From positions 62,001 to 126,000 of the forward strand of contig NZ_JAHIAB010000009.1 in NCBI RefSeq assembly GCF_018760365.1: a DNA stretch of 64,000 nt, in the 5' to 3' direction. The translations under genes and the position numbers were made by a program. The notes beneath the pieces were generated by a model. It saw only the letters and a program-made list of their open reading frames with translations. It did no database searches and had not been told where the DNA came from. The DNA is from Pseudooceanicola endophyticus. Lineage in GTDB: Bacteria; Pseudomonadota; Alphaproteobacteria; Rhodobacterales; Rhodobacteraceae. This document shows, piece by piece, positions 19,885 through 42,762 of this stretch (position 1 is its first letter; every line of letters begins with the position of its first letter).

Positions 19885-19911
19885 TTTCAATTGAACAACG
19901 TTCTATTGAAA
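19885..19911. promoter_or_regulatory. TetR-type operator copy A, upstream of TSUP gene
   Basis: Core TTGAAC-AAC-GTTCTA (19891-19905) flanked by concentric arms TTTCAAT (19885-19891) and ATTGAAA (19905-19911); 22 of 27 positions are symmetric. The core matches copies at 40610 and 42742. TTGAAC (19891-19896) and TATCCT (19914-19919), 17 bp apart, could be the promoter of the TSUP gene, so binding would block transcription. Confidence 0.65.
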
Positions 19912-19957
19912 CCTATCCTCCGCCGCGACCTTCCAGCCTGCCGACGGACCTTCCCCC

Positions 19958-20764
19958 ATGTTCCTGATCTTCGTAGTCATCCTGGCCCTGACCGGCGCCT
20001 TTGCCGGGGTGGTGTCCGGCCTGCTGGGCGTCGGCGGCGGCATCTTCCTGGTGCCGGTCTTCCTGGTGCTGTTCCGCGCCTTCGGCGTCTCCGAAGAGGT
20101 CGTCATGCAGATGTGCGTCGGCACCTCGACCGCGACGATCATCGCCACCTCCCTGCGCTCCGTGGTGACCCACAACGGCAAGGGGGCCGTCGACTGGGGC
20201 GTGCTGAAAAGCTGGGGCCCGGCGATGGGGCTGGGCGCGGTGCTGGGCGTGCTGGCGGCCACCGCGATGCATTCGGACACGCTGATGGCGATCTTCGGCA
20301 TCGTCGCCGCCCTGATGGGGGTCTACATGCTGGCCGGCGCCCCGCGCGGACGCCTGGCGCCCAGCCTGCCCGGCCCCGCCGTCTATGCGCCGCTTTCGGG
20401 CTTCATCGGCTTTGTCTGCGCCATGATGGGCATCGGCGGGGGCACTTTCGGGGTGCCCGCGCTGTCCGCCTTCGGCCTGCCGGTGCAGCGCGCCATCGCC
20501 ACCTCGGCGGGCTTCGGGGCCGTGATCTCGCTTCCCGCCTGCGTGACCTACCTGCTGGGCAGCACCGGGAACGCGCAGACCCTGCCGCTGACGGTGGGCT
20601 ACGTGAACCTGCCCACTTTCGCCCTGATCTCGCTCATGACCTGCCTTACCGTCCCTTTTGGCGTGCGGCTGGCGCATGTGTTACCAGCCGTTCGCTTGCG
20701 GCTGATCTTTGCCTTCTTCATCATCCTCGCCGCGCTGAACATGCTGCGCAAAGCCTTCTTCTGA
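19958..20764 (+). CDS. TSUP-family permease (TauE/SafE-like sulfite/anion exporter)
   Basis: 268 aa, about eight hydrophobic segments in two repeats, each opening with the TSUP motif: GVVSGLLGVGGGIFLVPVF near the N-terminus and FVCAMMGIGGGTFGVPAL in the second half. Family members move sulfite, sulfoacetate or other small organic anions. It is 10 bp upstream of the amidase gene and shares its promoter, so it may export or import a product or substrate of that enzyme. The TetR-like operator copy lies in its promoter. Confidence 0.9.
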   Translation: MFLIFVVILALTGAFAGVVSGLLGVGGGIFLVPVFLVLFRAFGVSEEVVMQMCVGTSTATIIATSLRSVVTHNGKGAVDWGVLKSWGPAMGLGAVLGVLAATAMHSDTLMAIFGIVAALMGVYMLAGAPRGRLAPSLPGPAVYAPLSGFIGFVCAMMGIGGGTFGVPALSAFGLPVQRAIATSAGFGAVISLPACVTYLLGSTGNAQTLPLTVGYVNLPTFALISLMTCLTVPFGVRLAHVLPAVRLRLIFAFFIILAALNMLRKAFF

Positions 20765-20774
20765 AAGGAATCCC

Positions 20775-22277
20775 ATGTCCGATCTTCCCTCCGATCCCGC
20801 AGAGCTCGGTGCCATCGAGGCCCGCCAGCTGATCGCCCGCAAGGCGCTGTCGGCGAAGGAGCTGGCCGAGGCCTGCATCGCCCGGACCGAGGCCGTGGAC
20901 CATGCCGTCAACGCCCTGGTGGCGCGCGATTTCGACGGGCTTCTGGCCGGGGCCGAGGCCGCCGATGCCGCCCAGGCCCGCGGCGAAGTCCAGGGCCCGC
21001 TGCACGGCCTGCCTTTCGGCGTGAAGGACATGATCGACGTCAAGGGCCTGCCCACCACCTTCGGATCAGAGCTGTTCCGCGACAATATCGCGGTGAAGGA
21101 CGATGCCATCGTTGCCGCGATGCGCGCCGCCGGCGCGATCCCGATGGGCAAGACCAACAACCCCGAATGGAGCGCCGGTGGCAACACCCGCAACCGCGTC
21201 TACGGCGCCACCGCCAACCCGCATGACCTGACGCGCACCTGCGCGGGCTCCTCGGGGGGCTCGGCGGCGGGCCTTTCGGCGGGGTATTTCCCGCTGGCAA
21301 CGGGCTCTGACACCGGCGGCAGCCTGCGCAACCCGGCCGCCTTCTGCGGCGTCGTCGGCTACCGCCCTTCTCCGGGCGTGGTGCCGGGCAACACCCGTGG
21401 CATCGGCTATTTCCCGATGTCGACCTCGGGCCCGATGGCGCGCAGCGTCGCCGATGCCGCGCTGATGCTCTCGGTGCTGGCGCGGCCCGACATGAACGAT
21501 CCCTATACCGCCGTGGTGAACGGCAAGACCGCCTGGGATCCGGCCAGCTTTGCCAACCTGCCGCGCCGCGACCTGTCCTCTCTCAACGTGGCCTTCACCG
21601 AGGATTACGGCTTCGCGCCCACCGAAAGCATCGTGCGCGACCACTTCCGCAAGGTGGTGCCGCAGATCGCGCCCTTCTTCGGCACGGTCGAGGACGGCAC
21701 CCCCGATTGCAGCCATGCCGACCGCATCTTCTCGGTGCTGCGCGGTATCCTGTTCGTGTCGACCCACGGCAAGCGCGTTGATGCCCATCCCGACCAGGTC
21801 GGCCCCAACGTGACCGAGAACGTCATCGAGGGTCGCAGCTTCAGCCCCGATGACATCTCGGAGGCCCTGGTGATGCAGGGCAGCTACCACTTCCGCTGGC
21901 AGAAATGGTTCGAGACCCATGATTTCGTGATCTCCCCGGCGGTGACGATCAGCCCGCGCGACTGGCACGAGCTGTACCCGGCGGAAATCGACGGCCACAA
22001 GACCTCCAGCTACTACCACTGGCTGGCGATGGCCTATGCCTCGACCATCGCGGGGCATCCCTCGATCACCATCCCCTGCGGCACCGATGCGAACGGCATG
22101 CCCTTCGGGCTTCAGATCGTCGGCAAGCGTTACGACGACCTGGGCGTACTGGCCGTCGCGGCGGAACTGGAGGCGATCATCGCCGGCCTGTCGGACCTGG
22201 CGCCGAAGGGCCCGGACATCGCGGCACTGAAGGCCGCCGGGCCGCTTTCCGCGGTCGAGGGCTTCCTGAGCCTGTAA
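20775..22277 (+). CDS. Amidase-signature family amidohydrolase
   Basis: 500-aa cytoplasmic hydrolase with the Ser-cisSer-Lys triad: Lys84 in PFGVKDMID, the cis-serine in CAGSSGGSAAGLSAG (about residues 159-160) and the nucleophile Ser183 in GSDTGGSLRNP. Related enzymes include GatA, AtzF and acylamidases. No GatB/GatC partners lie nearby, so a role in tRNA amidation is unlikely. Operon with the TSUP permease; start has GAAAGGA. It probably cleaves a carboxamide or N-acyl amino compound for the regulon that also contains the aminotransferase/DadA cluster (inference from shared operators). Confidence 0.9.
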   Translation: MSDLPSDPAELGAIEARQLIARKALSAKELAEACIARTEAVDHAVNALVARDFDGLLAGAEAADAAQARGEVQGPLHGLPFGVKDMIDVKGLPTTFGSELFRDNIAVKDDAIVAAMRAAGAIPMGKTNNPEWSAGGNTRNRVYGATANPHDLTRTCAGSSGGSAAGLSAGYFPLATGSDTGGSLRNPAAFCGVVGYRPSPGVVPGNTRGIGYFPMSTSGPMARSVADAALMLSVLARPDMNDPYTAVVNGKTAWDPASFANLPRRDLSSLNVAFTEDYGFAPTESIVRDHFRKVVPQIAPFFGTVEDGTPDCSHADRIFSVLRGILFVSTHGKRVDAHPDQVGPNVTENVIEGRSFSPDDISEALVMQGSYHFRWQKWFETHDFVISPAVTISPRDWHELYPAEIDGHKTSSYYHWLAMAYASTIAGHPSITIPCGTDANGMPFGLQIVGKRYDDLGVLAVAAELEAIIAGLSDLAPKGPDIAALKAAGPLSAVEGFLSL

Positions 22278-22283
22278 TCCCCC

Positions 22284-22309
22284 GGAAGGGCGTCCCCGGA
22301 CGCCCTTCC
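22284..22309. terminator. Bidirectional hairpin between amidase and HbpS-like genes
   Basis: GGAAGGGCGTCC (22284-22295) and GGACGCCCTTCC (22298-22309) are a perfect 12-bp inverted repeat between convergent genes. No T-run on either side, so it may act with Rho or mainly protect 3' ends. Confidence 0.6.
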
Positions 22310-22313
22310 CGCC

Positions 22314-22709
22314 TCAGCCCAGGGTGAAGGCGGCGACGACCCGTTCGGCCAGCCGCGTCTCGACATCCTCGACGGCGCCGCTCAGCCCCAGGGCGCCGGC
22401 CAGCTGGCCGTTTCGGTAAAGCGGGATGCCCCCGCCCAGAGGCATGACATCGGGCAGCATGTGCACCGGGCGCCCGGCCCGATAGCTTTCGGCAAAGGCC
22501 CGGGTCGGGCGGTCGTACAGGACGGCGGTGCGCGCCTTCGCCTCGGCGGCACGGTTTGCCCCGGCAATCGCGCCATCCATCCGCGCCAGCAGCACCAGGT
22601 GCCCGCCGGGATCGCTGATCGCGGCGACCACCCGCAGCCCCTCCTGCTGCGCCGCCCCGTGGCAGCGCGCGGCCAGGTCCTGCGCTTCGGCCAGGGTGAT
22701 CGCGGTCAT
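22314..22709 (-). CDS. HbpS/GlcG-family small protein
   Basis: 131 aa, single GlcG/HbpS domain (DUF336). Typical segments are AISDPGGHLVLLARMDGA, the central AEAKARTAVLYDRPTRAF and the C-terminal MPLGGGIPLYRNGQLAGALG. Family members bind heme or small organic acids and are often linked to glycolate or diol catabolism, but few are characterised. The start at 22709 is the first reasonable ATG; its ribosome site is poor (GGGGGC). Divergent from the GntR regulator at 22846, so probably under its control. Confidence 0.8.
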   Translation of the reverse strand: MTAITLAEAQDLAARCHGAAQQEGLRVVAAISDPGGHLVLLARMDGAIAGANRAAEAKARTAVLYDRPTRAFAESYRAGRPVHMLPDVMPLGGGIPLYRNGQLAGALGLSGAVEDVETRLAERVVAAFTLG

Positions 22710-22728
22710 GGCCGAGCCCCCGGCATTT

Positions 22729-22741
22729 TCGTATGAGGATC
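22729..22741. promoter_or_regulatory. Candidate GntR operator, copy 1
   Basis: TCGTATGAGGATC in the 136-bp divergent region between the HbpS-like and GntR genes. Eleven of thirteen positions match TCATATGATGATC at 26877-26889 before the TRAP operon. An imperfect palindrome TTTTC...GAAAA lies next to it at 22765-22786. Confidence 0.4.
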
Positions 22742-22845
22742 GTCCTTCGGACAGGAGATTGATCTTTTCATAGGAGTCTCCGAAAATAATCAGATAAAAT
22801 GTTTCCGGGCGCAGGCCCGGCAATTCAGGAACAGGTCCCAGGACG

Positions 22846-23532
22846 ATGACGGGAAAGACTTTCGTGACCGAGGCAGAGGGCGGCAGCACCGCAGACCGCG
22901 TGCTGCGCCGGATCCGCCACGACATCATCACCAACCGGCTGGGCCCCGGCGACCGGCTGCGGCTGGAACGGCTGCGCGAAGCCTATGGCGCCAGCGTCAG
23001 CACCCTGCGCGAGATCCTGAACCGGCTGGTGGCCGAGGGCTTCGTGGTGGCCGAGGGCAATCGCGGCTTCGGCGTCGCCCCGATCAGCGAACGCGACCTG
23101 CGCGACATCTGCCAGATGCGGCTGCTGCTGGAATGCCATGCCCTGCGCCGCTCGATCGAGGTCGGCGGGCTGGACTGGGAGGCACAGGTCGTCTCGGCGC
23201 ATCACAAGCTGCGCAGCGTCGAGGACCGGCTGATCGGCGGCGACGACAGTCAGGTGATGACCTGGGTCCAGTACGACTGGGACTTCCATCATGCCACCGT
23301 GATGGCCTGCGACATGCCGGTGCTGAGCACGACCCATTCCAACATCTTCGACCGGTTCATGCGCTATCACCTCTACGTGCTGGATTTCCGTGGCCGTCCC
23401 GCAGCCGAGGAACATGCCCGCCTGCGCGATCTGGTGGTCGGGCGCGATGCCGAGGGCGCCGTGGCCCTGCTGAGCGCCCATGTGCGCGCCGGCATGGAGC
23501 ACATCATCGCCAGCGGTCGCATCCCCGCCTGA
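22846..23532 (+). CDS. GntR/FCD-family transcriptional regulator
   Basis: 228 aa. A GntR winged helix occupies about residues 15-80 (LERLREAYGASVSTLREILN) and an all-helical FCD ligand domain follows, with metal-site candidates in YDWDFHHATVMA and the final LLSAHVRAGM. FCD regulators usually sense organic acids such as lactate, glycolate, sugar acids or aromatic acids. It sits between the HbpS-like gene and the convergent dehydroquinase-like/TRAP operon, and shared upstream motifs suggest it controls both. Confidence 0.9.
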   Translation: MTGKTFVTEAEGGSTADRVLRRIRHDIITNRLGPGDRLRLERLREAYGASVSTLREILNRLVAEGFVVAEGNRGFGVAPISERDLRDICQMRLLLECHALRRSIEVGGLDWEAQVVSAHHKLRSVEDRLIGGDDSQVMTWVQYDWDFHHATVMACDMPVLSTTHSNIFDRFMRYHLYVLDFRGRPAAEEHARLRDLVVGRDAEGAVALLSAHVRAGMEHIIASGRIPA

Positions 23533-23538
23533 GCGGGC

Positions 23539-23985
23539 TCAGGCCGCCGCGCGTTCGGCGGCCATCTCCAGCAGCAGGCGCACGGCATGGCCGTAGCCCC
23601 GCGTGCCCGTCCCCGCCATGACCGCCGTCGCCACCCCCGAGACCAGGGAATTGTGGTACATCGCCTCGCGCTTGTGGACGTTGGAGATGTGGAACTCGAT
23701 CAGCGGGTGGGGATACATCTTCAGCGCATCCATGATCGCCATGGAATAGAAAGTGAAGGCCGCCGGGTTGATCAGCAGGGCGCAGGAGCCCTCGATCGCC
23801 TCGTGGATCCAGTCGATCATCTCGGATTCCGAATTGGTCTGGCGGAAGACCAGTCCGGTGTCGCCGGCGGCCTCGGCGCAGATCCGTTCGACCTCGGCCA
23901 GGGTGACATGGCCGTAGATATGCGGCTCGCGCTGACCCAGGCGGTTGAGGTTCGGACCGTTGAGGACATAGACGGGTTTGGTCAT
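23539..23985 (-). CDS. Type II 3-dehydroquinate dehydratase homologue with altered active site
   Basis: 148 aa, normal length for the AroQ dodecamer family, and overall fold marks are clear: LNGPNLNRLGQREPHIYG (lid Arg and Tyr present), NSESEMIDWIHEA, EFHISNVHKRE (catalytic His present). Two residues conserved in true enzymes are changed: the His of the usual N-x-G-x-x-THTS motif is Phe (NPAAFTFYS), and the Arg of RExFR is Tyr (REAMYHNS). The glycine in that loop is Ala as well. It is last in the TRAP operon, 6 bp after the permease gene. It probably acts on a compound related to quinate or dehydroshikimate rather than serving aromatic amino-acid synthesis. Confidence 0.85.
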   Translation of the reverse strand: MTKPVYVLNGPNLNRLGQREPHIYGHVTLAEVERICAEAAGDTGLVFRQTNSESEMIDWIHEAIEGSCALLINPAAFTFYSMAIMDALKMYPHPLIEFHISNVHKREAMYHNSLVSGVATAVMAGTGTRGYGHAVRLLLEMAAERAAA

Positions 23986-23991
23986 GTGCGT

Positions 23992-25287
23992 TTATCCATT
24001 GTAGCCAAAGAGGCGTGGCAGCCAGAGCGAGAGGTCCGGCACCAGCGTGATGAGGAGGAGCGCCACCAGAAGCGCCACCAGGAAGGGCAGCACCTCGCGG
24101 ATGATCTGGCTGAGCTTGCAGCCCGAGATCGAGGTCATGACGAACAGCAGCAGCCCGTAGGGCGGCGTGATCAGCCCCAGCATGATGTTGACGACGCAGA
24201 CGATGCCGAAATGCACCATGTCGATGCCAAGCGCCTGGGCGGTGGGGATGAAGACCGGCACGATCACCAGCAGGATCGTCGTGCCCTCCAGCAGGCAGCC
24301 CAGCACCAGCAGGATGGCGTTGACGATCAGCAGGAAGACCACCGGCGACAGGTCGAAGCCGGACAGCCAGGCGCTGAGGGTGGCGGGGATGTTCTCGACC
24401 GTGACGACGTAGTTGAAGACCAGCGACCCGGCGATCAGCATCCCGATGGAGGCGGTGGTGCGCGCGCTCGACAGCACCGAACCATAGGCCGATTTCAGCG
24501 TCACGCTGCGATACAGCAGAGCCGAGACCAGCAGAGCATAAAGCGCGGCGACGGCGGCGGCCTCGGTCGGGGTGGTGGCGCCGCCGTAGATCCCGCCCAG
24601 CAGCACCACCGGCATCATCAGCGCCGGCACCGCGTTGAAGGTGATCCGGGGCAGCGCGCGCAGCGGCACCGGGGGCTCGACCGGGAAGTTCCGGCGCCGG
24701 GCCGTGACCAGGATGATGACGACCTGCACCAGCCCCATCAGCAGGCCCGGGACCACCCCGGCCAGGAACAGGTAGCCGATCGAGGCATCCGAGACGAGCG
24801 CGTAGATCACCATCGGGATCGAAGGCGGGATGATCGGACCGATCACCGCGGTCGAGGCGGTCAGGGCGGCGGCGAAGGCGGGCGGGTACTTGCCCCCCTC
24901 GGTCATCATCCGCTGCATCATCTTGCCGGACCCAGCCGCATCGGCGATGGCCGATCCCGACATGCCCGCGAAGATGATCGACTGCGCCACGTTGACCAGC
25001 GCCAGCCCGCCCGGGAAACGCCCGATGAAGGCATTGCAGAAGGCCAGCAGCCGCAGGGTCATGTTGCCGGCATTCATCAGCTCGGCCGCGAGGATGAAAA
25101 GCGGCACCGCCAGCAGGATATAGCTTGAGAACATGCCGTTCAGCAGCTGCTCGGCGGCGGTGCCCATGTCCGACCCGCTCAGCAGCAGGTAGAGGATCGA
25201 GGAGGCGATCATCGCATGGCCGACCGGAAGCCCCAGCAGCGCCAGCAGAACGATCGACAGGACGGAGGCAGTGAAGGGATCGATCAC
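23992..25287 (-). CDS. dctM: TRAP transporter large permease (DctM)
   Basis: 431 aa, a dozen or so hydrophobic segments. GTG at 25287 overlaps the small-subunit stop (GTGA) with GAGGAGG upstream. Typical motifs: PLFILAAELMNAG, FAGMSGSAIADAAGSGKMM, IGPIIPPSIPMVIYA and GLITPPYGLLLFV. It forms the Na+-coupled transport channel with the DctQ protein. Organic acids are the usual cargo. Confidence 0.93.
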   Translation of the reverse strand: MIDPFTASVLSIVLLALLGLPVGHAMIASSILYLLLSGSDMGTAAEQLLNGMFSSYILLAVPLFILAAELMNAGNMTLRLLAFCNAFIGRFPGGLALVNVAQSIIFAGMSGSAIADAAGSGKMMQRMMTEGGKYPPAFAAALTASTAVIGPIIPPSIPMVIYALVSDASIGYLFLAGVVPGLLMGLVQVVIILVTARRRNFPVEPPVPLRALPRITFNAVPALMMPVVLLGGIYGGATTPTEAAAVAALYALLVSALLYRSVTLKSAYGSVLSSARTTASIGMLIAGSLVFNYVVTVENIPATLSAWLSGFDLSPVVFLLIVNAILLVLGCLLEGTTILLVIVPVFIPTAQALGIDMVHFGIVCVVNIMLGLITPPYGLLLFVMTSISGCKLSQIIREVLPFLVALLVALLLITLVPDLSLWLPRLFGYNG

Positions 25288-25796
25288 GGCGCCTCCTCCC
25301 CGGGGCCGCGCGCGACCTCGGGCGGGGCGCCCCGCAGGGCCCGCCACAGCAACCAGGCGTAGCGCACCAGGATCGCCACCGCGAAGAGGATGTAGATCGA
25401 ATAGACCAGGTCGAAGCGCAGATCGAGGTAGGAGGTGTCCTGGATCTTCATGAAGGTGACGAAATCGAAGGCCGCCGGCAGCGACACGCCGTAGAGGAAC
25501 AGCAGCGCCGCGCAGGCCAGGATCGTCATGACCCGACGCAGCCGCGGCCCGACCATCGAGATCAGGAAATCAAAGCGGATCTCCTCGCGTTCACGCAGCA
25601 CGAAGGCCGCCCCCCAGAGCACCAGCCAGACCCACATGATCGTGGTCAGCTCCGAGGCGCCGCCGCTGGGCAGGTTCAGCAGGTAGCGGAAGGCCACCTG
25701 CACGATGAAGGCGGCGAACATCACCGCCAGCATCAGGGCGGCCACATTCTCGGCCCGGCGCCGCAGCCAGGCCCCGATGACGATCAGTCGTTGCAC
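25284..25796 (-). CDS. dctQ: TRAP transporter small permease (DctQ)
   Basis: 170 aa with four predicted membrane helices. Family marks: the VQVAFRYLLNLPSGGASELT segment after helix one, WLVLWGAAFVLREREEIRFD and the YSIYILFAVAILVRYAW terminal helix. It follows the binding-protein gene with a 60-bp gap containing a hairpin, and is coupled to DctM by a 4-bp overlap. Confidence 0.92.
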   Translation of the reverse strand: MQRLIVIGAWLRRRAENVAALMLAVMFAAFIVQVAFRYLLNLPSGGASELTTIMWVWLVLWGAAFVLREREEIRFDFLISMVGPRLRRVMTILACAALLFLYGVSLPAAFDFVTFMKIQDTSYLDLRFDLVYSIYILFAVAILVRYAWLLWRALRGAPPEVARGPGEEAP

Positions 25797-25813
25797 GTCT
25801 CTCTCTCCTCTGG

Positions 25814-25844
25814 GCCGCCGCCCCCGGGGGCCGGGCGCGGCGGC
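25814..25844 (-). other. Intercistronic hairpin after the TRAP binding-protein gene
   Basis: GCCGCCGC (25814-25821) pairs with GCGGCGGC (25837-25844), 8 bp, with further CCCC/GGGG pairing possible inside. No T-run; probable stabiliser of the dctP message. Confidence 0.5.
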
Positions 25845-25856
25845 ATGGGGCCGGCC

Positions 25857-26840
25857 TCAGAGGGCGTTGATGCGATCCAGCATGCCCTCGGGCCAGTCGG
25901 CCGAGAACGCGGAGTCGAGGTACATCTTCTGCGCGTAGCTGCGGAACGCCTCCACATCGGGGGTGTTGATCGCCAGGCCCTGGTCCTTGAAGAAGCCCAC
26001 CAGCTCCTGCTCGCGCGCGAGGTGCTGCTGGGTGCTCCAGGCGATGGCCTCGGTGGCGGCGGCCTGGAAGGCGGTGCGCTGCTCCTCGGTGAAGCCCTTC
26101 CAGACCTTGGCCGAGATCACCAGCAGGTCGTAGCCCACCAGATGAGAGGTCATGACGATCTGGTCCATCACCTCGTAGAACTTCATGTTCTGCACGTTGG
26201 GCAGCGGGTTGTCCTGGCCGTCGATGGCGCCGGTCTGAAGCCCGGTATAGACCTCGGCATAGGCCATCGGGGTCGGGTTGGCGCCAAGCGCCTTGCCCAG
26301 GAACTGCCAGGCATCGCCCCCCGGCATCCGCAGCTTGACCCCCGACATGTCCTCGGGCGTGCGGATTTCCTTGTCGATGCGCAGGCCCACCTGACGGGTG
26401 CCGAAATAGGTCGGCCCCAGGATGTGGATGCCCAGCTTGTCCTCCGCAAGCGCGACCATCTCGGCCCCGGCATCACTGTTGAAGAAACTGTTCAGGTGAT
26501 CCGCGTCCCGGAACAGGTAGGCCGAGGTCAGGATCGAGAATTCCTTGATCTGGGTGGCAATGTCCTGGGGCGCGACATTGCCCATCTCCAGGTTGCCGCG
26601 CTGGATCGCGATGATCTCGGTCGTCTGCTTGAACAGGTTGCCGCCGTAATACAGCTCCAGCTTGGCGAAATCCGCGACCGAGGCCGCCAGCTTCTGCATC
26701 ATCTGGGCGCGGATGTCCTGCTCCGAGAAGACCGCCGAGAAGCGCAGCTTCTTCGCCTCCTGCGCAAACGCCGGCAGCCCGGCCCCCGCGCTCAGCCCGG
26801 CTGCCGCCATGCCCCCCAGAAATACCCTGCGATTGGTCAT
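25857..26840 (-). CDS. dctP: TRAP transporter substrate-binding protein (DctP)
   Basis: 327-aa periplasmic receptor. The start at 26840 has GGAGGAA 5 nt upstream; the N-terminus NRRVFLGGMAAAG is twin-arginine-like and ends in LPAFAQ. The ligand-carboxylate arginine motif typical of DctP lies around GVKLRMPGGDAWQFLGKALG, and the following MAYAEVYTGLQTGAIDGQDN is diagnostic. Ligand presumably an organic acid; the dehydroquinase-like gene in the operon suggests a quinate- or shikimate-like compound. Confidence 0.93.
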   Translation of the reverse strand: MTNRRVFLGGMAAAGLSAGAGLPAFAQEAKKLRFSAVFSEQDIRAQMMQKLAASVADFAKLELYYGGNLFKQTTEIIAIQRGNLEMGNVAPQDIATQIKEFSILTSAYLFRDADHLNSFFNSDAGAEMVALAEDKLGIHILGPTYFGTRQVGLRIDKEIRTPEDMSGVKLRMPGGDAWQFLGKALGANPTPMAYAEVYTGLQTGAIDGQDNPLPNVQNMKFYEVMDQIVMTSHLVGYDLLVISAKVWKGFTEEQRTAFQAAATEAIAWSTQQHLAREQELVGFFKDQGLAINTPDVEAFRSYAQKMYLDSAFSADWPEGMLDRINAL

Positions 26841-26876
26841 GAGTTCCTCCCTCATATTCCACATACGATTCCGAAA

Positions 26877-26889
26877 TCATATGATGATC
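26877..26889. promoter_or_regulatory. Candidate GntR operator, copy 2, before TRAP operon
   Basis: TCATATGATGATC, 37 bp upstream of the dctP start, overlaps the perfect palindrome ATCATATGAT (26876-26885). It matches the element in the HbpS/GntR divergent region at 11 of 13 positions. Confidence 0.4.
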
Positions 26890-26983
26890 CGACCATCCTA
26901 AGGTGAACTTCGCGATCAGGTAAAGCGGCAATACCGAAAAACCCGCAATGCGGGTTTCCGGTTGGTTGAACGCGGCGGCGGGC

Positions 26984-27913: not shown

Positions 27914-27916
27914 ACT

Positions 27917-27931
27917 ATACCTCCCCGGTAT
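27917..27931. promoter_or_regulatory. BenM-type operator (ATAC-N7-GTAT)
   Basis: ATAC-CTCCCCG-GTAT exactly fits the known BenM/CatM consensus and also the general LysR T-N11-A rule. It covers the ribosome-binding site of the LysR gene (start 27913), suggesting direct autorepression. Confidence 0.75.
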
Positions 27932-28029
27932 GAAGACAGACGAACTTGATCTTGGCTTTTTTCCTCCCGCCGAGCGAGAGTCCATGTTGCCTGATTGGAG
28001 TTGGTAGCTGGAGGAGCTGCCGAACGGGA

Positions 28030-28055: not shown

Positions 28056-28078
28056 CATGGGTCCTGACGGACCCTGCC

Positions 28079-28096
28079 CCCGCGCCCCGGCGCGGG
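28079..28096 (+). other. GC hairpin in the benA leader
   Basis: CCCGCGCC (28079-28086) and GGCGCGGG (28089-28096) form an 8-bp inverted repeat about 80 bp before the benA start. No T-run and no leader peptide are visible, so its role is unclear. Confidence 0.35.
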
Positions 28097-35305: not shown

Positions 35306-35310
35306 CGGGA

Positions 35311-36180: not shown

Positions 36181-36203
36181 GAGAGAGCCTCCTAGAAGCA
36201 GGT

Positions 36204-36249
36204 CCGGGTGGCGCGGCGCAGCCCCGGGGCCGCCTCCGCGCGTGCCCGG
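36204..36249 (-). other. Intercistronic hairpin after the Liv-type binding-protein gene
   Basis: CCGGG-TG-GCGCGG (36204-36216) pairs with CCGCGC-GTG-CCCGG (36236-36249), with a GCCCCGGGGC palindrome inside. No T-run; likely mRNA processing or stabilising element between SBP and livH. Confidence 0.45.
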
Positions 36250-36251
36250 GA

Positions 36252-37421
36252 TCAGTTGGCCACCGGGGCCATCTCGCAGCCGTTCGCGGCATCGGGACGG
36301 GCCGGCAGTTCCGCCAGGATCTTCTGGGTCATGCCGTCATCGCCCTGCACCGTCTCGTAGACGTAGATCGGCTGGACGATGTTGTTGGTGGCCGGATCGA
36401 TCGAGGTCTGCCCGCGCGGCCCGGTGAACTGCACCTGGCGCAGCGCCTCGCCCAGCCCGGCCCGGCCCCGCGCCCCGGTGGCGGCGGCCTCGACCAGCGC
36501 CCGGGCGCTGTCGTAGCCCTGCACGGCATATTCCGACGGCAGGCGCCCGGTCCTTGCCTCGAAGGCGGTCACGAAGGCGCGGTTCTCCTCGGTGTCGATG
36601 GTGGGCACGTAATGCAGCGCCGTCACCACCCCCGCGGCCGCCGGCCCCTCGGCATTGACGTAAAGCGGCGAGGTCAGGAAACCGGAGCCGTAAAGCGGCA
36701 GCTCGGCCTTCATGCCGAAGCTGTCGTACTGCTTGACGAAGGAGATCGCCTCGCTGCCGGCATAGAAGACATAGACCGCCTGCGCGCCGCTGGCCTTCGC
36801 CTTGGCCAGGTAGGGCCCGAAGTCCTGGGTCTTCTGGAACGGCGTGAATTCCTGCCCGGCGATCTCGCCTCCGGCGGCGGTGAACCCCTCGACGAAGCCG
36901 CCGATCATCTGCCGGCCACCGGCATAATCGGGGGCCAGGGTGAAGACCCGGGTGATGCCCTGATCATGCAGCCACTGCCCCATCGGCCGGTTCACCTGCC
37001 CGTTGGAGAAGGACATCCGCGTGATCCACGGAGAGCAGGCCGACCCGGTGGCATCGTCATTGCCGGCATTGGCCACGATCAGCGGCACCCCGGCGCCATG
37101 GACGGCATCGCGCACCGCCCCCAGCACGCCCGAGCTGACAACGCCGGCGATCACGTCGACCTTGTCCTGCAGGATCAGCTTGCGGGTCTTGGCCAGCGCC
37201 ACCGGCGGCTTGACCTCGGTATCCTCGCGGATCACCTCGAAGCCGCTGTCGGGCGCGAAGGTCTCGAGCCCAAGGTCGAAACCAGCCTCGATATCATTGC
37301 CAAGCGCGGCATAGACGCCCGAGAAGGGCAGCAGCAGCCCGACCCGGACCGGGTCTTCGGCATGGGCCGGCACGGCAAAGGCGGTGGCCAGCCCGAGGGC
37401 CGCCAGGACATGTCTTTTCAT
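36252..37421 (-). CDS. ABC transporter substrate-binding protein, Liv/aromatic-acid type
   Basis: 389-aa periplasmic receptor with a Sec signal (KRHVLAALGLATAFAVPAHA). Peripla_BP_6 fold: VGLLLPFSGVYAALGNDIEA, VDVIAGVVSSGVLGAVRD, TLAPDYAGGRQMIGGFVEGF. Start at 37421 has GGAGG upstream. The group includes Rhodopseudomonas receptors for benzoate derivatives and 4-hydroxybenzoate as well as leucine receptors. Adjacency to ben genes and the shared upstream element favour an aromatic acid. Confidence 0.88.
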   Translation of the reverse strand: MKRHVLAALGLATAFAVPAHAEDPVRVGLLLPFSGVYAALGNDIEAGFDLGLETFAPDSGFEVIREDTEVKPPVALAKTRKLILQDKVDVIAGVVSSGVLGAVRDAVHGAGVPLIVANAGNDDATGSACSPWITRMSFSNGQVNRPMGQWLHDQGITRVFTLAPDYAGGRQMIGGFVEGFTAAGGEIAGQEFTPFQKTQDFGPYLAKAKASGAQAVYVFYAGSEAISFVKQYDSFGMKAELPLYGSGFLTSPLYVNAEGPAAAGVVTALHYVPTIDTEENRAFVTAFEARTGRLPSEYAVQGYDSARALVEAAATGARGRAGLGEALRQVQFTGPRGQTSIDPATNNIVQPIYVYETVQGDDGMTQKILAELPARPDAANGCEMAPVAN

Positions 37422-37599
37422 CTGTTTTCCTCCCGTTGCACCCTCCGGGGAGGCCACCCGCCCTCCTCAAGGCGGGGTCCGGGACGGACCCGGGCCATGG
37501 CGTCCCCCGATCGCGCGCCGCAGGACCGATCCTGCGCCCGCCGATCCGGGCTTCGCGGTCATCATGAAACGCCCCGCCCGGCAGGTCGATGCCGCCACC

Positions 37600-37615
37600 G
37601 GTAACGGCTGATACC
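37600..37615. promoter_or_regulatory. ben-like regulatory element upstream of the Liv-type importer
   Basis: GGTAACGGCTGATACC matches the palindrome GGTATCGGGCGATACC of the benM-benA region at 13 of 16 positions. It lies about 180 bp upstream of the binding-protein start. Confidence 0.5.
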
Positions 37616-37674
37616 CGCAATGATTGCAACGGGACGTCACGCACTCCCCCGAAACACGCCGGGCGCAACGCAAA

Positions 37675-37694
37675 GGGGCGCCCGAAGGCGCCCC
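37675..37694 (-). terminator. Terminator of the second TRAP operon
   Basis: Perfect 8-bp stem GGGGCGCC/GGCGCCCC around TTCG (read on the minus strand, a UUCG tetraloop), 21 bp after the dctP stop, followed by TTTGCGTTG. Confidence 0.75.
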
Positions 37695-37715
37695 TGTCTT
37701 TCGCTGTCGCGCGGA

Positions 37716-38708
37716 TCACTCCGGCGCGTAGTCCGAGATCATCTTCAGGATCGCGTCGATGCGCTCGGGCTTCACGTTCGGCACGGTGCCCTTCATCTCG
37801 GTGGTGGCTTCCTTGAAGGTCGCCAGCTCTGCCTTGGAGGGTTCGTAGACCGCGACGCCTGCCGCCTCGAGCTCCTTCTTGTGGGTCGCCTCGGAATCGT
37901 CGACCCACTGGAAGACCTCGGCCAGGGCCTTCTTGGACGCGTCGTTCACCTGCTGCTTCTCTGCATCCGACAGATCATCCCACCAGGCGGTCGAGACCAG
38001 CGCCAGGCGCGCCGACATGATCACCTTGGCGTCGGTGAAGTTGCTGAACAGATCGGCCTGGCCGAAGGTCAGCGGCACCGAAGAGGCGTTCACATAGCCG
38101 TCGGCAATGCCGGTCTGGATGGCGTTCGGCACTTCCGAGAACGGGATGACCACGCCGTTGGCGCCCATCATCTTGAACATTTCCAGCTGCGAGGGGTCGA
38201 GGGCGCGCATCCGCAGGCCCTTCATGTCCGCAACCGTCTTCACTTCGTGCTCATCGTTGAAGATGCCCAGGAAGCCGCCGTTGGGCACCACGGCCAGGAT
38301 GTGCATCCCGTCGGATTCAAGCTGCTTGTTCACCGTCGCGAGGTAGTCGCTCTCGGTGAAGAACTTGAACTCGTGATCGGGGTTCTCGAAGGCGTAGGGC
38401 AGCTGGAGGACGCGCATTTCCGGGACCATCTGGGTGGCCACGGCAAAGTTCGACATCGAGACGTCCAGAATGCCCGAACGGATCTGGTCCAGACGTTCGT
38501 CCTCGCCGCCGATGGCGTTCAGCGGGAAGGCCTCGGTCTTCCAGCCCTCGGCCTTGAGGTTGGTCAGCAGGTTGTCGGCATAGCGGAAGGTGCCGGATTT
38601 CTCGCGGTCGGGGTTGGCATCCAGGGCGATGTTGATCGACTGGGCGTCGGCCACGCCGCCGATGGCAAGCGCGAGGGTGAAGGCGGTGGTGGCAAGCAGG
38701 GTCTTCAT
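37716..38708 (-). CDS. dctP: TRAP transporter substrate-binding protein (DctP)
   Basis: 330 aa with a Sec signal (KTLLATTAFTLALAIGGVADA). DctP marks: ILAVVPNGGFLGIFNDEHEV, MKGLRMRALDPSQLEMFKMM (ligand arginine region) and EVPNAIQTGIADGYVNASSV. In this operon the receptor is last, after DctM and DctQ, unlike the first TRAP operon. Ligand unknown; the co-regulated aminotransferase and D-amino-acid enzymes hint at an amino or keto acid. Confidence 0.93.
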   Translation of the reverse strand: MKTLLATTAFTLALAIGGVADAQSINIALDANPDREKSGTFRYADNLLTNLKAEGWKTEAFPLNAIGGEDERLDQIRSGILDVSMSNFAVATQMVPEMRVLQLPYAFENPDHEFKFFTESDYLATVNKQLESDGMHILAVVPNGGFLGIFNDEHEVKTVADMKGLRMRALDPSQLEMFKMMGANGVVIPFSEVPNAIQTGIADGYVNASSVPLTFGQADLFSNFTDAKVIMSARLALVSTAWWDDLSDAEKQQVNDASKKALAEVFQWVDDSEATHKKELEAAGVAVYEPSKAELATFKEATTEMKGTVPNVKPERIDAILKMISDYAPE

Positions 38709-38710: not shown

Positions 38711-39247
38711 TTACTCCAGCATGTTGGCTTCGGCTTCTTTGGCAAAGGCGATCTCTTTCGAGAGCACCCGGGGCGAGATGAGCGCGCCGAGACCGGCGAG
38801 CCCGTGCAGCAGGATCAGGAAGATGGCGACCGGCAGGGCGGTGGCCATCCAGGCGGTGGACACCCCAAGCCCCTCGGAGGTGCGGCCGATCTGGCGCTCC
38901 ACGTAGGGCCAGGTGTAGTAGAGCACCGGCGCGAAGAAGATCCACGAGGCCAGGAAACGGGCGACCACCTGGGCCTTCTGCCGCCAGATCACGTGGCTGG
39001 GCGGGTGCACCATTGCCGGGTCGGCATGGGTGTGGAAGGCGCAGGACGCCCCCAGCAGCCCGCCCCAGACCATCAGCCAGCGCGCCAGCTCCTCGGTCCA
39101 GAACGGCGGGGAGGAGAAGATGTAGCGCGCCACCACCTGCAGCATCATCACCAGCAGCATGCCCAGGAAGCAGTAGGCCGCGATGCGCTTGGCAATGGTA
39201 TTGAGCCGCTCGGAAAGGGCATAGAGCGCGTCGGCGAAAAAGATCAT
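38711..39247 (-). CDS. dctQ: TRAP transporter small permease (DctQ)
   Basis: 178 aa with four membrane helices. Family signature VVARYIFSSPPFWTEELARW follows helix one, then WGGLLGASCAFHTHADPAM. Two bases separate it from dctP and eleven from dctM, consistent with one transcript from a promoter near 40.6 kb. Confidence 0.92.
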   Translation of the reverse strand: MIFFADALYALSERLNTIAKRIAAYCFLGMLLVMMLQVVARYIFSSPPFWTEELARWLMVWGGLLGASCAFHTHADPAMVHPPSHVIWRQKAQVVARFLASWIFFAPVLYYTWPYVERQIGRTSEGLGVSTAWMATALPVAIFLILLHGLAGLGALISPRVLSKEIAFAKEAEANMLE

Positions 39248-39258: not shown

Positions 39259-40545
39259 TCAGTTCAGGAAGCCGGTCAGGCGCGGCAGGAACAGGCTGAT
39301 CTCGGGGACGAAGGTCAGGACCATGAGCACGCCAAGCTGCACCAGCAGGAAGGGGGCGGCGGCGCGGGCGATGCCCCAGTAAGGCGCCCCCGACACGGCC
39401 GAGACGACCAGCAGCGCGGCCCCGAAGGGCGGGGTCACGATGCCCAGCGTCAGGTTCACCACGATGACGATGCCCAGATGCACCGGGTCCGCGCCCATCG
39501 AGATGCCGGTGGGCACCAGCAGCGGCACCAGCAGCGCCAGCGCCACGGGGACCTCCAGGAACATCCCGGCGACCAGGAAGACCGCGTTCAGCAGCAGCAG
39601 GTACTTCCAGCCGTCAAAGCCCAGCCCGATCAGCATCTGCGCCAGTTTCGAGGGGATCTGCTCAAGCCCGGCAAGGTAGCCGAAGATCGCCACGCCCGAG
39701 AGCAGGATGAAGATCGAACCCGACAGGATCGCGGTGCGCTCCAGGCTTTCGATCAGCTTGCCCCAGGTCATCTGGCCGTAGATGATCCCGGCGATGATGG
39801 CGCAGCACACGGCGACGCCGGCGGCCTCGGTCGGGGTCATGATGCCGAAGACGATGCCCGACAGGATGATCACCGGAATGACGGTGGCGGGCAGCGCATA
39901 GACCGCGCGGCGCAGGATCTCGCGCAGCGGCACGCGTTCGCCCGAGGGGTGATCGTGCTTGTGCGCCATGTAGGCGTTGGCCCCGAACAGCGCGAGCGCC
40001 ATCAGCAGGCCCGGAATGATGCCGGCGATGAAAAGCGCGGCGACCGAGGTGTTCATCAGCGCGCCGTAGAAGATCATCACGATCGAGGGCGGGATGATCG
40101 GCCCGATGACCGACGACGCGGCGGTGATCGCCCCGGCATAGTTCAGCGAATAGCCCGCCTTCTTCATCGCCGGGACCAGCGTGTTGGACACCGAGGCCGC
40201 ATCGGCCATGGCCGAGCCGGAGATGCCCGCGAAGAACACCGAGGTCAGGATGTTGACGTGACCCAGGCCGCCCTTCAGCCGCGCCATCAGCGCCATCGCC
40301 AGGTCCAGCAGGGCCTGGGTGACGCCCGCGCGGTTCATGATCTCGCCCGCCAGAATGAACAGCGGCATCGACATGATGGAAAACAGGTCGATATGCGCAA
40401 TGATGCGCTGCGGGGCGGCGGCCAGGAAGCGCACGCGGTCGGCCGCCACGAAGGACAGGATGGAGGCGGCACCGATCAGGTGCGCCAGCACGGCGCCGCC
40501 GGAGAGCAGCAGCGCGGAGAGGATGAGGATGGGTATTGCGGCCAT
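39259..40545 (-). CDS. dctM: TRAP transporter large permease (DctM)
   Basis: 428 aa, about twelve helices. Motifs PLFILAGEIMNRAGVTQALL, FFAGISGSAMADAASVSNTL, IGPIIPPSIVMIFYGALMNT and LGIVTPPFGAALLVVSAVSG are DctM-typical. First gene of its operon, divergent from the TetR gene. The candidate TetR operator at 40610-40630 lies 65 bp upstream of its start. Confidence 0.93.
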   Translation of the reverse strand: MAAIPILILSALLLSGGAVLAHLIGAASILSFVAADRVRFLAAAPQRIIAHIDLFSIMSMPLFILAGEIMNRAGVTQALLDLAMALMARLKGGLGHVNILTSVFFAGISGSAMADAASVSNTLVPAMKKAGYSLNYAGAITAASSVIGPIIPPSIVMIFYGALMNTSVAALFIAGIIPGLLMALALFGANAYMAHKHDHPSGERVPLREILRRAVYALPATVIPVIILSGIVFGIMTPTEAAGVAVCCAIIAGIIYGQMTWGKLIESLERTAILSGSIFILLSGVAIFGYLAGLEQIPSKLAQMLIGLGFDGWKYLLLLNAVFLVAGMFLEVPVALALLVPLLVPTGISMGADPVHLGIVIVVNLTLGIVTPPFGAALLVVSAVSGAPYWGIARAAAPFLLVQLGVLMVLTFVPEISLFLPRLTGFLN

Positions 40546-40609: not shown

Positions 40610-40630
40610 TTATTGAACGATGTTCTATAA
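40610..40630. promoter_or_regulatory. TetR-type operator copy B, TRAP2/TetR divergent region
   Basis: TTAT-TGAAC-GAT-GTTCT-ATAA; symmetric except for the T/A pair beside the GAAC core and the centre. It equals copy C (reverse complement) outside the central bases. On the + strand TTGAAA (40601-40606) and CTATAA (40625-40630) could be promoter boxes, so the operator would overlap the TetR promoter. Confidence 0.75.
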
Positions 40631-40703: not shown

Positions 40704-41435
40704 TTGACTCAGGACAGCGCACAAAAATCAGGCAAATCACCCAGAGGTCGTGCCGCAGTTGTGGGACTCAGCAAGGCACAGGTGGTCGAGGCCGCCATTC
40801 GCCAGATCGACGAGAAGGGCTTTGCCGGCTTCTCCCTGCGGGAACTGGCGCGCACGCTGAAGGTCTCTCCGACAGTGATCTACTGGCATGTCGGCGGCGC
40901 CAAGGAGGACCTTTTCGCCGAGATCGCCGCCTCCATCACCGGCGCGCTGTCCGAAGGGCTGGGCGAGGAACCCGACTGGAAGACCCGCCTGCGCGCGGTC
41001 TTCCTGCGCTATCGCAAGCTGGTGCACGAACATCCCAATGTCGCGCCTCTGCTGGGCGCGCAGATGAAGTCGAACGGCGTCGCCAATATCGACTGGGTGG
41101 AAACCGTGCTCTCGGCACTGCAGGATGCGGGCTACAAGGGCGATGACCTGCGCACCGCCTTCAACGCCCTGCTGGGCGGGCTGGTCGGCTTCGTCACCAT
41201 GGAGCTGGCGCCCCCGCCCTCCGACAAGGCCACCGACTGGGAACAGCTCTTTGCCGAGCGCGTCGCCCAGATCGACCCGCAGACCCATCCGCTGACCCAT
41301 GCCGCCCTGCCCCATATCACCAACCGCATCTTCGTGCTGCGCTGGCAGAACGGGGCCGACATCTCCTACGACGATGGCTTTACCCTGCTGCTCGATCTGC
41401 TGATCGAGGGGCTGGCCGCCCGCGCCCCCCGCTGA
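40704..41435 (+). CDS. TetR/AcrR-family transcriptional regulator
   Basis: 243 aa. The N-terminal HTH reads VVEAAIRQIDEKGFAGFSLR, ELARTLKVSPTVIYWHVGGA; the C-terminal ligand domain has ALLGGLVGFVTMELAPPP. The start is apparently TTG at 40704 with GGGGA upstream; a GTG at 40761 is an alternative that still keeps the whole HTH. Divergent from TRAP2 and 26 bp upstream of the aminotransferase. Three matching palindromes (19885, 40610, 42742) are its likely operators. Confidence 0.87.
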   Translation: MTQDSAQKSGKSPRGRAAVVGLSKAQVVEAAIRQIDEKGFAGFSLRELARTLKVSPTVIYWHVGGAKEDLFAEIAASITGALSEGLGEEPDWKTRLRAVFLRYRKLVHEHPNVAPLLGAQMKSNGVANIDWVETVLSALQDAGYKGDDLRTAFNALLGGLVGFVTMELAPPPSDKATDWEQLFAERVAQIDPQTHPLTHAALPHITNRIFVLRWQNGADISYDDGFTLLLDLLIEGLAARAPR

Positions 41436-41461
41436 TCCCCCCTGCTCCGGACCCTTTCCCG

Positions 41462-42721
41462 ATGACCGACGCCTTCACCTCCGATCTTGACGCGGCGCTG
41501 GATGCCGCGCGCTCCGCCTATGTCGCCCGCAACCCCGGCAGCGCCGCCGCGCTGGAACGCGCGCGCCGCGTCATGCCGGGCGGCAACACCCGGACCTCGC
41601 TCTGGTCCGATCCCTTCCCGCTGTCGGTCGCCAGCGGCCAGGGCTGCCACATCCGCGACGTGGACGGCCATGACTACGTGGATTTCCTGGGCGAATTCAC
41701 CGCCGGCATCTTCGGCCACACCGCCCCCGCCCTGGCCGAGGCCATGGCCCGCGTCCATGCCGAGGGCATCAACCTGTCCTCCCACACCCCCTACGAGGCC
41801 GCGCTGGCCGAACGTCTGGTGGCCCGCTTCCCCTCGATGGAGCTGCTGCGCTTCGCCAATTCGGGGACCGAGGCCAACCTGATGGCGCTGACCACCGCGC
41901 GGCTGGTCACGGGCCGGCCCCGCGTCGTCGTCTTCCAGGGCGGTTATCACGGCGGGGTGCTGACCTTCGGCCATGGCAATGCGCCCGTGAACGTGCCCTT
42001 CGATTTCGCCGTCCTGCCCTACAATGATGCCGGGGCCGCCCGCGCCGAATTCGCCGCCCACGGGCCCGAGATCGCCGCCGTGCTGATCGAGCCGATGCAG
42101 GGCGCCGGGGGCTGCCGTGCCGCCGACCCGCAGGTCCTTCAGCTGCTGCGTGACCTGTGCACCGAGACCGGCGCGCTGCTGATCTTCGACGAGGTCCAGA
42201 CCGCCCGCATGTCCGAAGGCGGCGCCCAGGCGCGCCTTGGCATCACGCCGGACATGACCACCATCGGCAAGTTCTTCGGCGGCGGCCTGGCCTTCGGCGC
42301 CTTCGGGGGCCGGGCCGACATCATGAACCATTTCGACCCCACCCGTCCCGATGCCATCGGCCATGCCGGCACCTTCAACAACAACCGCCTGACCATGGCG
42401 GCAGGGCTGGCGGCGCTGGATCACTACCTGACGCCGAAGGCGCTGGACGCGCTGTTCGCGCGGGGCGAAGCCTTCCGCGCCGCGCTGAACGCGCGCTTCG
42501 ACGCCGCGGGCGGGCTGTTCCACGTCACCGGCATGGGATCGATCATGAACATCCACGGCACCGGTCCGGAGGCCGCCAAACGCCTGCGCCTGCTGCATTT
42601 CCGGATGCAGGCCGAGGGGTACTACTTTGCCGCGCGCGGCCTCATCGCGCTGTCTCTGCCTATCGGAGCGGCAGAAACCGATGGTTTCCTCGACGCCATC
42701 GAGCGGGTGCTGGCCGCCTGA
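41462..42721 (+). CDS. Class III PLP-dependent aminotransferase (GSA-aminomutase-like)
   Basis: 419 aa, fold type I. Visible residues: FANSGTEANLMALTTARL (phosphate-binding turn), FQGGYHGGVL, LLIFDEVQTARMS (Asp to pyridine N) and TTIGKFFGGGLAFGAFGG with the Schiff-base Lys. It resembles glutamate-1-semialdehyde aminomutase, D-phenylglycine and beta-amino-acid aminotransferases; its DEVQTARMS and IGK environment do not point to haem synthesis. It could transaminate or racemise an amino acid handled by the DadA/aldolase genes downstream. Confidence 0.87.
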   Translation: MTDAFTSDLDAALDAARSAYVARNPGSAAALERARRVMPGGNTRTSLWSDPFPLSVASGQGCHIRDVDGHDYVDFLGEFTAGIFGHTAPALAEAMARVHAEGINLSSHTPYEAALAERLVARFPSMELLRFANSGTEANLMALTTARLVTGRPRVVVFQGGYHGGVLTFGHGNAPVNVPFDFAVLPYNDAGAARAEFAAHGPEIAAVLIEPMQGAGGCRAADPQVLQLLRDLCTETGALLIFDEVQTARMSEGGAQARLGITPDMTTIGKFFGGGLAFGAFGGRADIMNHFDPTRPDAIGHAGTFNNNRLTMAAGLAALDHYLTPKALDALFARGEAFRAALNARFDAAGGLFHVTGMGSIMNIHGTGPEAAKRLRLLHFRMQAEGYYFAARGLIALSLPIGAAETDGFLDAIERVLAA

Positions 42722-42732
42722 CAGCCCTCCGC

Positions 42733-42762
42733 TTGACAGGTTTATAGAACAGTGTTCAATAA
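42733..42762 (+). promoter_or_regulatory. Promoter with TetR-type operator copy C, before RidA gene
   Basis: TTGACA (42733-42738) is a consensus -35 box; TCAATA (42756-42761) is a weak -10 at 17 bp. The operator TTAT-AGAAC-AGT-GTTCA-ATAA (42742-42762) fills the spacer and -10. Its reverse complement matches copy B at 18 of 21 positions, with differences only in the centre. Confidence 0.75.

Follow-up and report, generated by a model that had tools for sequence, protein, structure and literature searches.

Three copies of one dyad point to a probable TetR regulon for amide-linked or N-acylated D-amino acids in Pseudooceanicola endophyticus

The 64,000-nucleotide stretch of Pseudooceanicola endophyticus DNA analyzed here (NZ_JAHIAB010000009.1, positions 62,001 to 126,000; hereafter, the window, whose first letter is position 1) carries three copies of one short dyad, termed operator copies A, B and C. 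Copy B lies beside a gene for a TetR-family regulator at 40704, and copy A about 20 kb away, before genes for a TSUP permease and an amidase. We consider it likely that they mark a three-promoter TetR regulon for the use of amide-linked or N-acylated D-amino acids. Judged from sequence, all three sites are very likely to be bound by the TetR protein, and the assignment to an amide- or acyl-D-amino-acid pathway is moderately probable.

From the sites and their neighbors we infer binding, repression, an inducer, a substrate and an order of steps, as follows. The TetR protein would act as a local repressor through a dyad (consensus ATTGAACNNNGTTCWAT) to which it binds in front of three units, i.e., in the divergent gap between tetR and genes for a tripartite ATP-independent periplasmic (TRAP) importer (copy B), before a ridA-dadA-aldolase operon (copy C) and before the TSUP-amidase operon (copy A). 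An inducer, probably the imported compound or its product, would bind TetR and turn the three units on together. The importer would take up an amide-linked or N-acylated D-amino acid (or a D,D-dipeptide), and the amidase would split the amide bond. The freed D-amino acid would then be converted by the DadA-like enzyme to an imine, and the imine by RidA to a keto acid and ammonia, while an aminotransferase and an aldolase-type enzyme would take further amino products and TSUP would transport an acid product.

Three copies of one dyad within 23 kb

Copy A (19888-19908, no strand assigned) is a dyad around TTGAACAACGTTCTA, with a forward-strand 15-mer at 19891-19905; the end of this 15-mer is 52 bp from the TSUP start, and a divergent GntR-family gene starts 102 bp from its other edge. 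Copy B (40610-40630, no strand assigned), a 21-bp dyad around TTGAACGATGTTCTA with its 15-mer at 40613-40627 (forward strand), occupies the 158-bp divergent gap between dctM (reverse) and tetR (forward). Copy C (42742-42762, no strand assigned) is also a 21-bp dyad, but inverted (15-mer at 42745-42759, reverse strand), and is found between the aminotransferase stop codon and ridA, its 15-mer being 64 bp from ridA. All three 15-mers thus sit in short gaps inside 23 kb.

The pattern TTGAACNNNGTTCTA was present at A, B and C with no mismatches, confirming the three positions given in a preliminary description of this DNA; the genes named there were likewise confirmed. Allowing up to two mismatches, it had six matches in the window (the three sites on both strands), against a mean of 0.58 in dinucleotide-shuffled sequences, none of 100 of which reached six. 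When B was compared with reversed C, 22 of 24 positions were equal and both differences fell within the central triplet, so that the near-identity outside the center claimed earlier also holds. An Rfam scan of the window returned no matches.

Rarity of the motif

The assembly that contains the window comprises 5,226,282 bases (5.23 Mb) in 46 contigs. Exact matches to TWGAACNNNGTTCWA across this genome were copies A, B and C only, with none in the reversed control, so that the motif is not frequent away from the window genes. Two further places matched TTGAACNNNGTTCTA with one mismatch, and at up to two mismatches there was no genome-wide excess (36 matches vs 66 in the control). With the 19-base WATTGAACNNNGTTCWATW at up to three mismatches there were 19 matches, six of which were the three sites, vs nine in the control. 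The three sites matched WATTGAACNNNGTTCWATW perfectly, and the next best match, at C2:142983 (ending at 143001), had two mismatches. Some 70 bp downstream of the latter (C2:142983-143001, L108:1501-1519) is the probable start of a gene for a DegP-like protease (Trypsin_2 and PDZ domains); the match may be either a weak fourth site or due to chance.

The family's 393 other genomes carry this 15-mer without mismatch at 33 sites, in 32 genomes and with at most two per genome; counting the window genome, which has three, 33 of 394 carry it. At this family rate, three sites in one genome would have a P of ~1e-4 to 2.5e-4, a value that does not count the clustering of all three in short gaps within 23 kb.

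The dyad accompanies close relatives of the TetR protein

Scanning genome contigs with the TetR protein gave five relatives, in Pseudodonghicola xiamenensis (L040), Carideicomes alvinocaridis (L041), Salipiger mangrovisoli (L042), Allosediminivita pacifica (L043) and Salipiger thiooxidans (L044), and a search of the 394 family genomes added a sixth close relative (L036, genome G138, 47-48% identity). The dyad stands before tetR in all five readable close relatives (L036, L040, L041, L042 and L044); L043 was left out of the count because a contig end cuts its tetR upstream region. The sites in L040 and L042 are identical to TTGAACNNNGTTCTA, and departures from T(T/A)GAACNNNGTTC(A/T)A number one in L044, one in L041 and two in L036. 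Elsewhere in the close-relative loci there was a single stray match with two mismatches (L040, 16591). In L036, TTGGACGGCGTTCAA (3242) lies between tetR and ridA, i.e., at the position of copy C. The consensus of eleven sites from seven loci, including the window, is ATTGAACNNNGTNCNATNAA. Retention of a dyad at TetR's own promoter is therefore clear in the readable close relatives (5/5), and less clear in the distant ones described below (5/9).

The distant TSUP-amidase pair

An amidase orthologue adjoins the TRAP genes in L040 (88% identity) and L041 (75%), the interval from the amidase to the end of dctP being 126 bp and 84 bp, respectively; in both, the gene order is amidase, TRAP (reverse strand), tetR, ridA, dadA, aminotransferase. 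In L040, TTGAACATCGTACAA (4960) precedes a decayed TSUP stretch that reaches the amidase (tblastn E 1.1e-6 to the window TSUP). The same sequence, TTGAACATCGTACAA, precedes a shorter remnant and the amidase (86%) at 7900 in L060 (G258, taken as A. pacifica); this remnant shows weak similarity (E 0.05) and is called TSUP by its position and ends. A dyad is thus found before a TSUP remnant and amidase in two of the three genomes having both TetR and amidase. By comparison, sampled genomes with amidase relatives (60-72%) and no TetR relative of at least 47% had a dyad in none of seven cases (up to two mismatches, within 2.5 kb), although L065 has one match with two mismatches 3.0 kb from its amidase relative. 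Co-occurrence of TetR (at least 48%) and amidase (at least 60%) in the 393 other genomes was 2/3 vs 7/390 (P 0.0014). The adjacency in L040 and L041, the dyads in L040 and L060 and the plasmid runs described in the next section all support the earlier proposal that the distant TSUP-amidase pair is linked to the TetR cluster.

In the window, but not in L040 or L041, the amidase and dctP are parted by a 15-kb segment (22278-37715). It holds genes for a GntR-family regulator, a second TRAP set, two LysR regulators, a Rieske dioxygenase with its reductase and a branched-chain-type ATP-binding cassette (ABC) importer; with each end searched by itself, one 15-nt repeat pair was found within one of them and none in the other. 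Because the amidase adjoins the TRAP-TetR genes in L040 and L041, and because of fragments in L044, the 20-kb distance looks secondary, i.e., TSUP-amidase-TRAP-tetR looks like the ancestral layout and the 15-kb segment like a later separation. The S. thiooxidans cluster (L044:9244-12108) is partly deleted: tetR and dadA are both broken, and next to tetR a fragment of TSUP directly adjoins fragments of dctM. Loss of the amidase and the remaining TRAP genes from that layout would give such an arrangement.

The TSUP gene has decayed to an unequal extent in two genera (L040:4960-5390 and L060:7900-8160), the operator and the amidase being kept. This suggests that the permease may have become dispensable earlier than the amidase.

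Amidase relatives on plasmids and D-amino acids

Relatives of the amidase occurred in 57 plasmid records; 15 of these, from six organisms, were listed, and the rest included records from Rhizobium and Azospirillum. The comparison that follows covers five loci (L122-L126), each from a different listed organism. In all five, the amidase relative (70-78%; 70.3-73% in two tblastn runs for Pseudosulfitobacter, L126) adjoins a gene for D-serine ammonia-lyase. RidA directly follows the amidase in three of the five, TSUP precedes it in three (L122-L124), a flavin adenine dinucleotide (FAD) oxidoreductase follows RidA in two, and a peptide ABC importer and M20 peptidase are present in four. By tblastn, identity to the window genes was 50-51% for TSUP, 63-69% for RidA and 53-60% for DadA. 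Only in Salipiger abyssi were TSUP, amidase, RidA and DadA all present, in a row; the Thioclava locus has a different FAD oxidoreductase, in the opposite direction, which was not detected as a relative. At the thresholds used, none of the five loci had a dyad, and the stretches examined held no relative of the window TetR.

The D-serine ammonia-lyase beside these amidase relatives backs the D-amino-acid assignment independently of the motif, and, since the loci have no TetR relative, much of the enzyme set recurs without the window TetR, centered on D-amino acids. The suggestion in the preliminary description that an amide or N-acyl bond is cleaved and a D-amino acid degraded is thus well supported by gene context. 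The operon-like plasmid runs of S. abyssi, Salipiger sp. CCB-MM3 and Pseudosulfitobacter, which include D-serine ammonia-lyase, resemble the window in having amidase (73-78%) and RidA (63-69%) side by side, with TSUP (51%) in both Salipiger and a DadA-like enzyme (53-60%) in S. abyssi and Pseudosulfitobacter. They differ in having a peptide ABC importer, gamma-glutamyltransferase and an M20 peptidase, with an Lrp/AsnC gene nearby in two, and in being without TRAP, a TetR relative or a dyad (thresholds used).

Two further observations concern these plasmids. A few kb beyond the amidase-RidA pair of Salipiger sp. CCB-MM3 (L123:15665-18820) are genes of D-amino-acid type, i.e., for an N-carbamoyl-D-amino-acid hydrolase, a dihydropyrimidinase and an Asp/Glu racemase-family protein. 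In Pseudosulfitobacter (L129:5099-9494), a distant TRAP set (DctP 36%, DctM 50%) lies beside another amidase (40%), which hints that the window's TRAP branch may pair with amide hydrolases.

More distant relatives of the TetR protein

A plasmid search with TetR gave 13 records with relatives at 33-47%, six of which were read, and the family search added three distant loci (L037, L038 and L039), making nine. Near the TetR relative, three of the six plasmid records (Agrobacterium, Mesorhizobium and Sinorhizobium) encode RidA and an aminotransferase, and the first two also have a DadA-like FAD oxidoreductase, 44-47% identical to that of the window. Also encoded at the Mesorhizobium locus are a peptide-type ABC importer, a serine hydrolase and an M15 peptidase, the last of which was matched best by models for D-Ala-D-Ala dipeptidases, with scores far below cut-off. 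An aminotransferase is present in the Roseomonas locus, and the close neighbors in Phaeobacter and Vibrio are dissimilar.

A 21-bp dyad with arms TTATTG-N9-CAATAA was found, at up to two mismatches, in five of the nine loci. It is perfect in Mesorhizobium, where it separates the serine hydrolase from the aminotransferase-TetR pair, and in L038, directly beyond the end of tetR. Sinorhizobium has one copy ahead of the aminotransferase-TetR pair and a second ahead of RidA; Vibrio has three, one of them within tetR (0.45 expected by chance), and Phaeobacter has one, 4 kb from tetR (0.35 expected). Copy A does not match these outer arms even at three mismatches, and L042 and L060 also fail the pattern at up to two, so that the arms would not be essential to this class of site.

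Alignment of the TetR recognition helices showed SP where the site reads ATTGAAC (the window, L040 and L042). The Mesorhizobium and Sinorhizobium proteins have YP or FP, with sites reading ATTGTT(C/T), and L036 has YP with other inner bases. From this alignment it is possible that helix and operator covary.

Weighing of the alternatives

Several results weigh against the proposed regulon. Copy A shares the 15-mer with B and C, without their outer flanks. A consensus scan found no complete sigma-70-type promoter at A, B or C; the earlier statement that copy C sits between a -35 and a -10 element therefore stands for the first element (TTGACA at 42733-42738, directly upstream of copy C), the -10 being unproven. 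The DegP-like protease gene behind the possible fourth site has no evident link to the pathway, and L041 has no dyad at up to three mismatches within 2.5 kb before its amidase. Four of the nine distant loci (L037, L039, Agrobacterium L098 and Roseomonas L101) had no outer-arm dyad at up to two mismatches, although the Agrobacterium TetR (47%) is as close as that of L036; the Vibrio and Phaeobacter loci are AT-richer, so that their dyads, given the numbers expected by chance, weigh little. The NCBIfam matches of DadA, RidA and BhcC type were all under the curated cut-offs. The two best solved relatives of the TRAP solute-binding protein, 4n8g and 4ngu, are probably D-Ala-D-Ala complexes, and searches of the open literature yielded no account of a TRAP protein with D-Ala-D-Ala. 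Finally, no cluster examined in the close TetR relatives contained the aldolase-type gene, and the one thing that speaks for its membership of the regulon is its position behind copy C.

That three short palindromes are alike by chance is hardly credible: the 15-mer has only 12 fixed positions, and 32 of the 393 other genomes have at least one copy, but none of them has three, as the low P at the family rate reflects, and the dyad is kept before tetR in every readable close relative. It is also improbable that copy A is the operator of the neighboring GntR/FCD-family regulator, its likeness to B and C being coincidental or ancestral and the regulation not shared. The GntR protein could act in the divergent gap where copy A lies, and the outer flanks of copy A would fit a separate regulator; however, a dyad of the same class precedes the TSUP remnant and amidase in L040 and L060, where no GntR relative was found in the stretch examined (tblastn, E up to 1e-4), the exact motif occurs just three times in the genome, and the GntR gene product (19273-19788, reverse strand) matches positions 3-75 of 125 of the FCD domain only. 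This gene appears short, encoding 171 aa from an ATG.

Two other readings accept the sites as TetR operators. In one, which we regard as unlikely, the genes do not form one pathway and the regulator responds to a stress- or efflux-type ligand, the genes being detoxifying or loosely related. The C-terminal domain of the protein matches TetR_C_1, of the tetracycline-repressor-like type; RidA proteins can be general damage-control enzymes (PMC4433059); genes for an HlyD-type export adaptor and a peptidase-type ABC transporter are ~3-6 kb away from the distant Vibrio TetR relative; and the possible fourth site precedes a DegP-like protease gene. Set against this, the window regulon comprises an importer and catabolic-type genes with no efflux-type gene, and elsewhere genes of these types are again found together, differently ordered and with different regulators. 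The other reading, a rather doubtful one, is a beta-amino-acid pathway with the aminotransferase as its key enzyme, the amidase opening N-acyl-beta-amino acids and the DadA-like enzyme acting elsewhere. The nearest solved relatives of the aminotransferase are indeed beta-phenylalanine and beta-transaminases, the gene is part of the TetR clusters of L040, L041 and L043, and relatives (49% and 64%) lie beside TetR in L037 and L039. However, the clusters of L036 and L042 keep DadA without the aminotransferase, and the amidase relatives in L122-L126 travel with D-serine ammonia-lyase, and in three of five with RidA, without the window aminotransferase.

Some more specific substrates were considered and set aside. 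N-acetyltaurine-type sulfonate breakdown was suggested by TSUP alone, and no search was made for it. As for 1-aminocyclopropane-1-carboxylate (ACC), the ACC-deaminase model scored 223 bits in the window organism (cut-off 392), the best match having an internal stop. A complete beta-hydroxyaspartate cycle was rejected, there being one match to the BhcC model in the genome, below cut-off. A BhcC-like gene does lie ~4.5 kb from an amidase relative (61%) in L067, but to judge from the translations it is probably part of a bhc cluster; the proximity is accordingly taken as a coincidence of neighborhood.

Relation to known systems

The D-amino-acid regulon proposed for the window has partial counterparts. 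During D-alanine breakdown in Pseudomonas aeruginosa, DadA releases an imine that a Rid protein removes; the dad operon encodes DadA, DadX, the Rid protein DadY and the regulator DadR, i.e., an AsnC-type regulator and an alanine racemase, whereas the window has TetR, TRAP, amidase, aminotransferase and an aldolase-type enzyme (PMC9714295). Rid genes are reported to cluster with FAD amine oxidases (PMC4433059). The ong cluster of Pseudoalteromonas, for oxidized chitin (GlcNAc1A), is like the window in combining repressor-controlled import of an N-acylated D-amino-acid-like compound with deacylation and deamination, and in having a RidA protein and a fold-type III pyridoxal phosphate (PLP) enzyme distantly related to D-threonine aldolases; it differs in its D-aminoacylase-like deacetylase, sodium solute symporter and MurR/RpiR-type regulator, and no DadA-like enzyme or TRAP was seen in the available parts of the report (PMC9537276). 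No description of the window regulon was found in one open literature library, and we regard it as new and well supported, although of an ordinary kind.

If the proposal is correct, a single short site shows which genes make up an uncharacterized uptake-and-breakdown pathway, among them an operon at a distance of 20 kb that could not have been connected from gene order, and it assigns one testable class of substrate to a TRAP importer, an amidase and a TSUP permease together. Nitrogen turnover by way of D-amino acids and their conjugates has been little mapped, and the recurring set of amidase, RidA and D-amino-acid enzyme would be a way into it. For N-conjugated D-amino acids from plants or algae, we know of no bacterial catabolic regulon. 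A speculative and rather improbable reading is that such conjugates (N-malonyl- or gamma-glutamyl-type) are scavenged here, with TRAP binding the conjugate and the amidase removing the acyl group; equally tentatively, the corresponding conjugates of ACC would be dealt with by those relatives that have gamma-glutamyltransferase and ACC deaminase. The idea comes from the gamma-glutamyltransferase and ACC-deaminase genes beside relatives' operons, together with reports that plants malonylate both D-amino acids and ACC, in presumed competition for this reaction, and make gamma-glutamyl-ACC (PMC7432710, PMC7820975).

Assignment of the proposed regulon genes

The TSUP (TauE/SafE-type) permease (19958-20764, forward strand, 268 aa) matches Pfam PF01925 (E 5.7e-45), and the amidase-signature hydrolase that follows it (20775-22277, forward, 500 aa) matches PF01425 (E 1.9e-90), its nearest solved structures being urethanases and amidases. 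The TRAP genes are all on the reverse strand. The solute-binding protein DctP (37716-38708, 330 aa; PF03480, E 1.1e-48) is closest by sequence, among solved structures, to 4n8g (4.4e-39, 27-28% identity) and 4ngu (1.2e-37, 25%), which also came top by fold (Foldseek) from a low-confidence DctP model (pLDDT 58). DctQ, the small permease (38711-39247; PF04290, E 2e-17), has relatives of 74-83% in L041/L040, and DctM, the large permease (39259-40545), matches PF06808 (E 4.1e-99).

The TetR-family regulator (40704-41435, forward, 243 aa from a TTG start) matches TetR_N (3.1e-9) and TetR_C_1 (4.9e-8), both above the gathering score. The class III aminotransferase (41462-42721, forward) belongs by sequence to the beta-transaminase branch, its best solved relatives being the beta-phenylalanine aminotransferase 4ao9 (4.7e-123, 414 bits) and the beta-transaminase 2yku (4.2e-119), which scored 401 bits, as did 6iz9; the next branches were 6k8h (class III, with no further name) at 276.9 bits, ForI at 225.6 bits and glutamate-1-semialdehyde (GSA) aminomutases at up to 206.9 bits.

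Behind copy C, the RidA-family imine deaminase (42824-43156, forward) matches PF01042 (E 4.2e-25) and, below cut-off, NCBIfam TIGR00004 (E 6.1e-22). The DadA-like enzyme (43182-44426, forward) is a member of the DAO family (PF01266, E 1.5e-56) that scored 172.7 bits against NCBIfam NF001933 (E 1.3e-50; cut-off 383). A role on D-amino acids is favored by the adjacent RidA gene and by the D-serine ammonia-lyase genes next to the amidase relatives. The last gene (44441-45562, forward; its ATG start was chosen by hand from the reading frame) encodes a fold-type III PLP enzyme of the D-threonine/3-hydroxy-D-aspartate aldolase family (PF01168 and PF14031). It matched the model for BhcC of the beta-hydroxyaspartate cycle (NCBIfam NF045642) over nearly its full length, although with 499.9 bits against a cut-off of 690, i.e., with similarity at the family level only, and had no fellow match to that model in the genome; its best solved relative is 6qkb, a D-3-hydroxyaspartate aldolase (1.1e-116).

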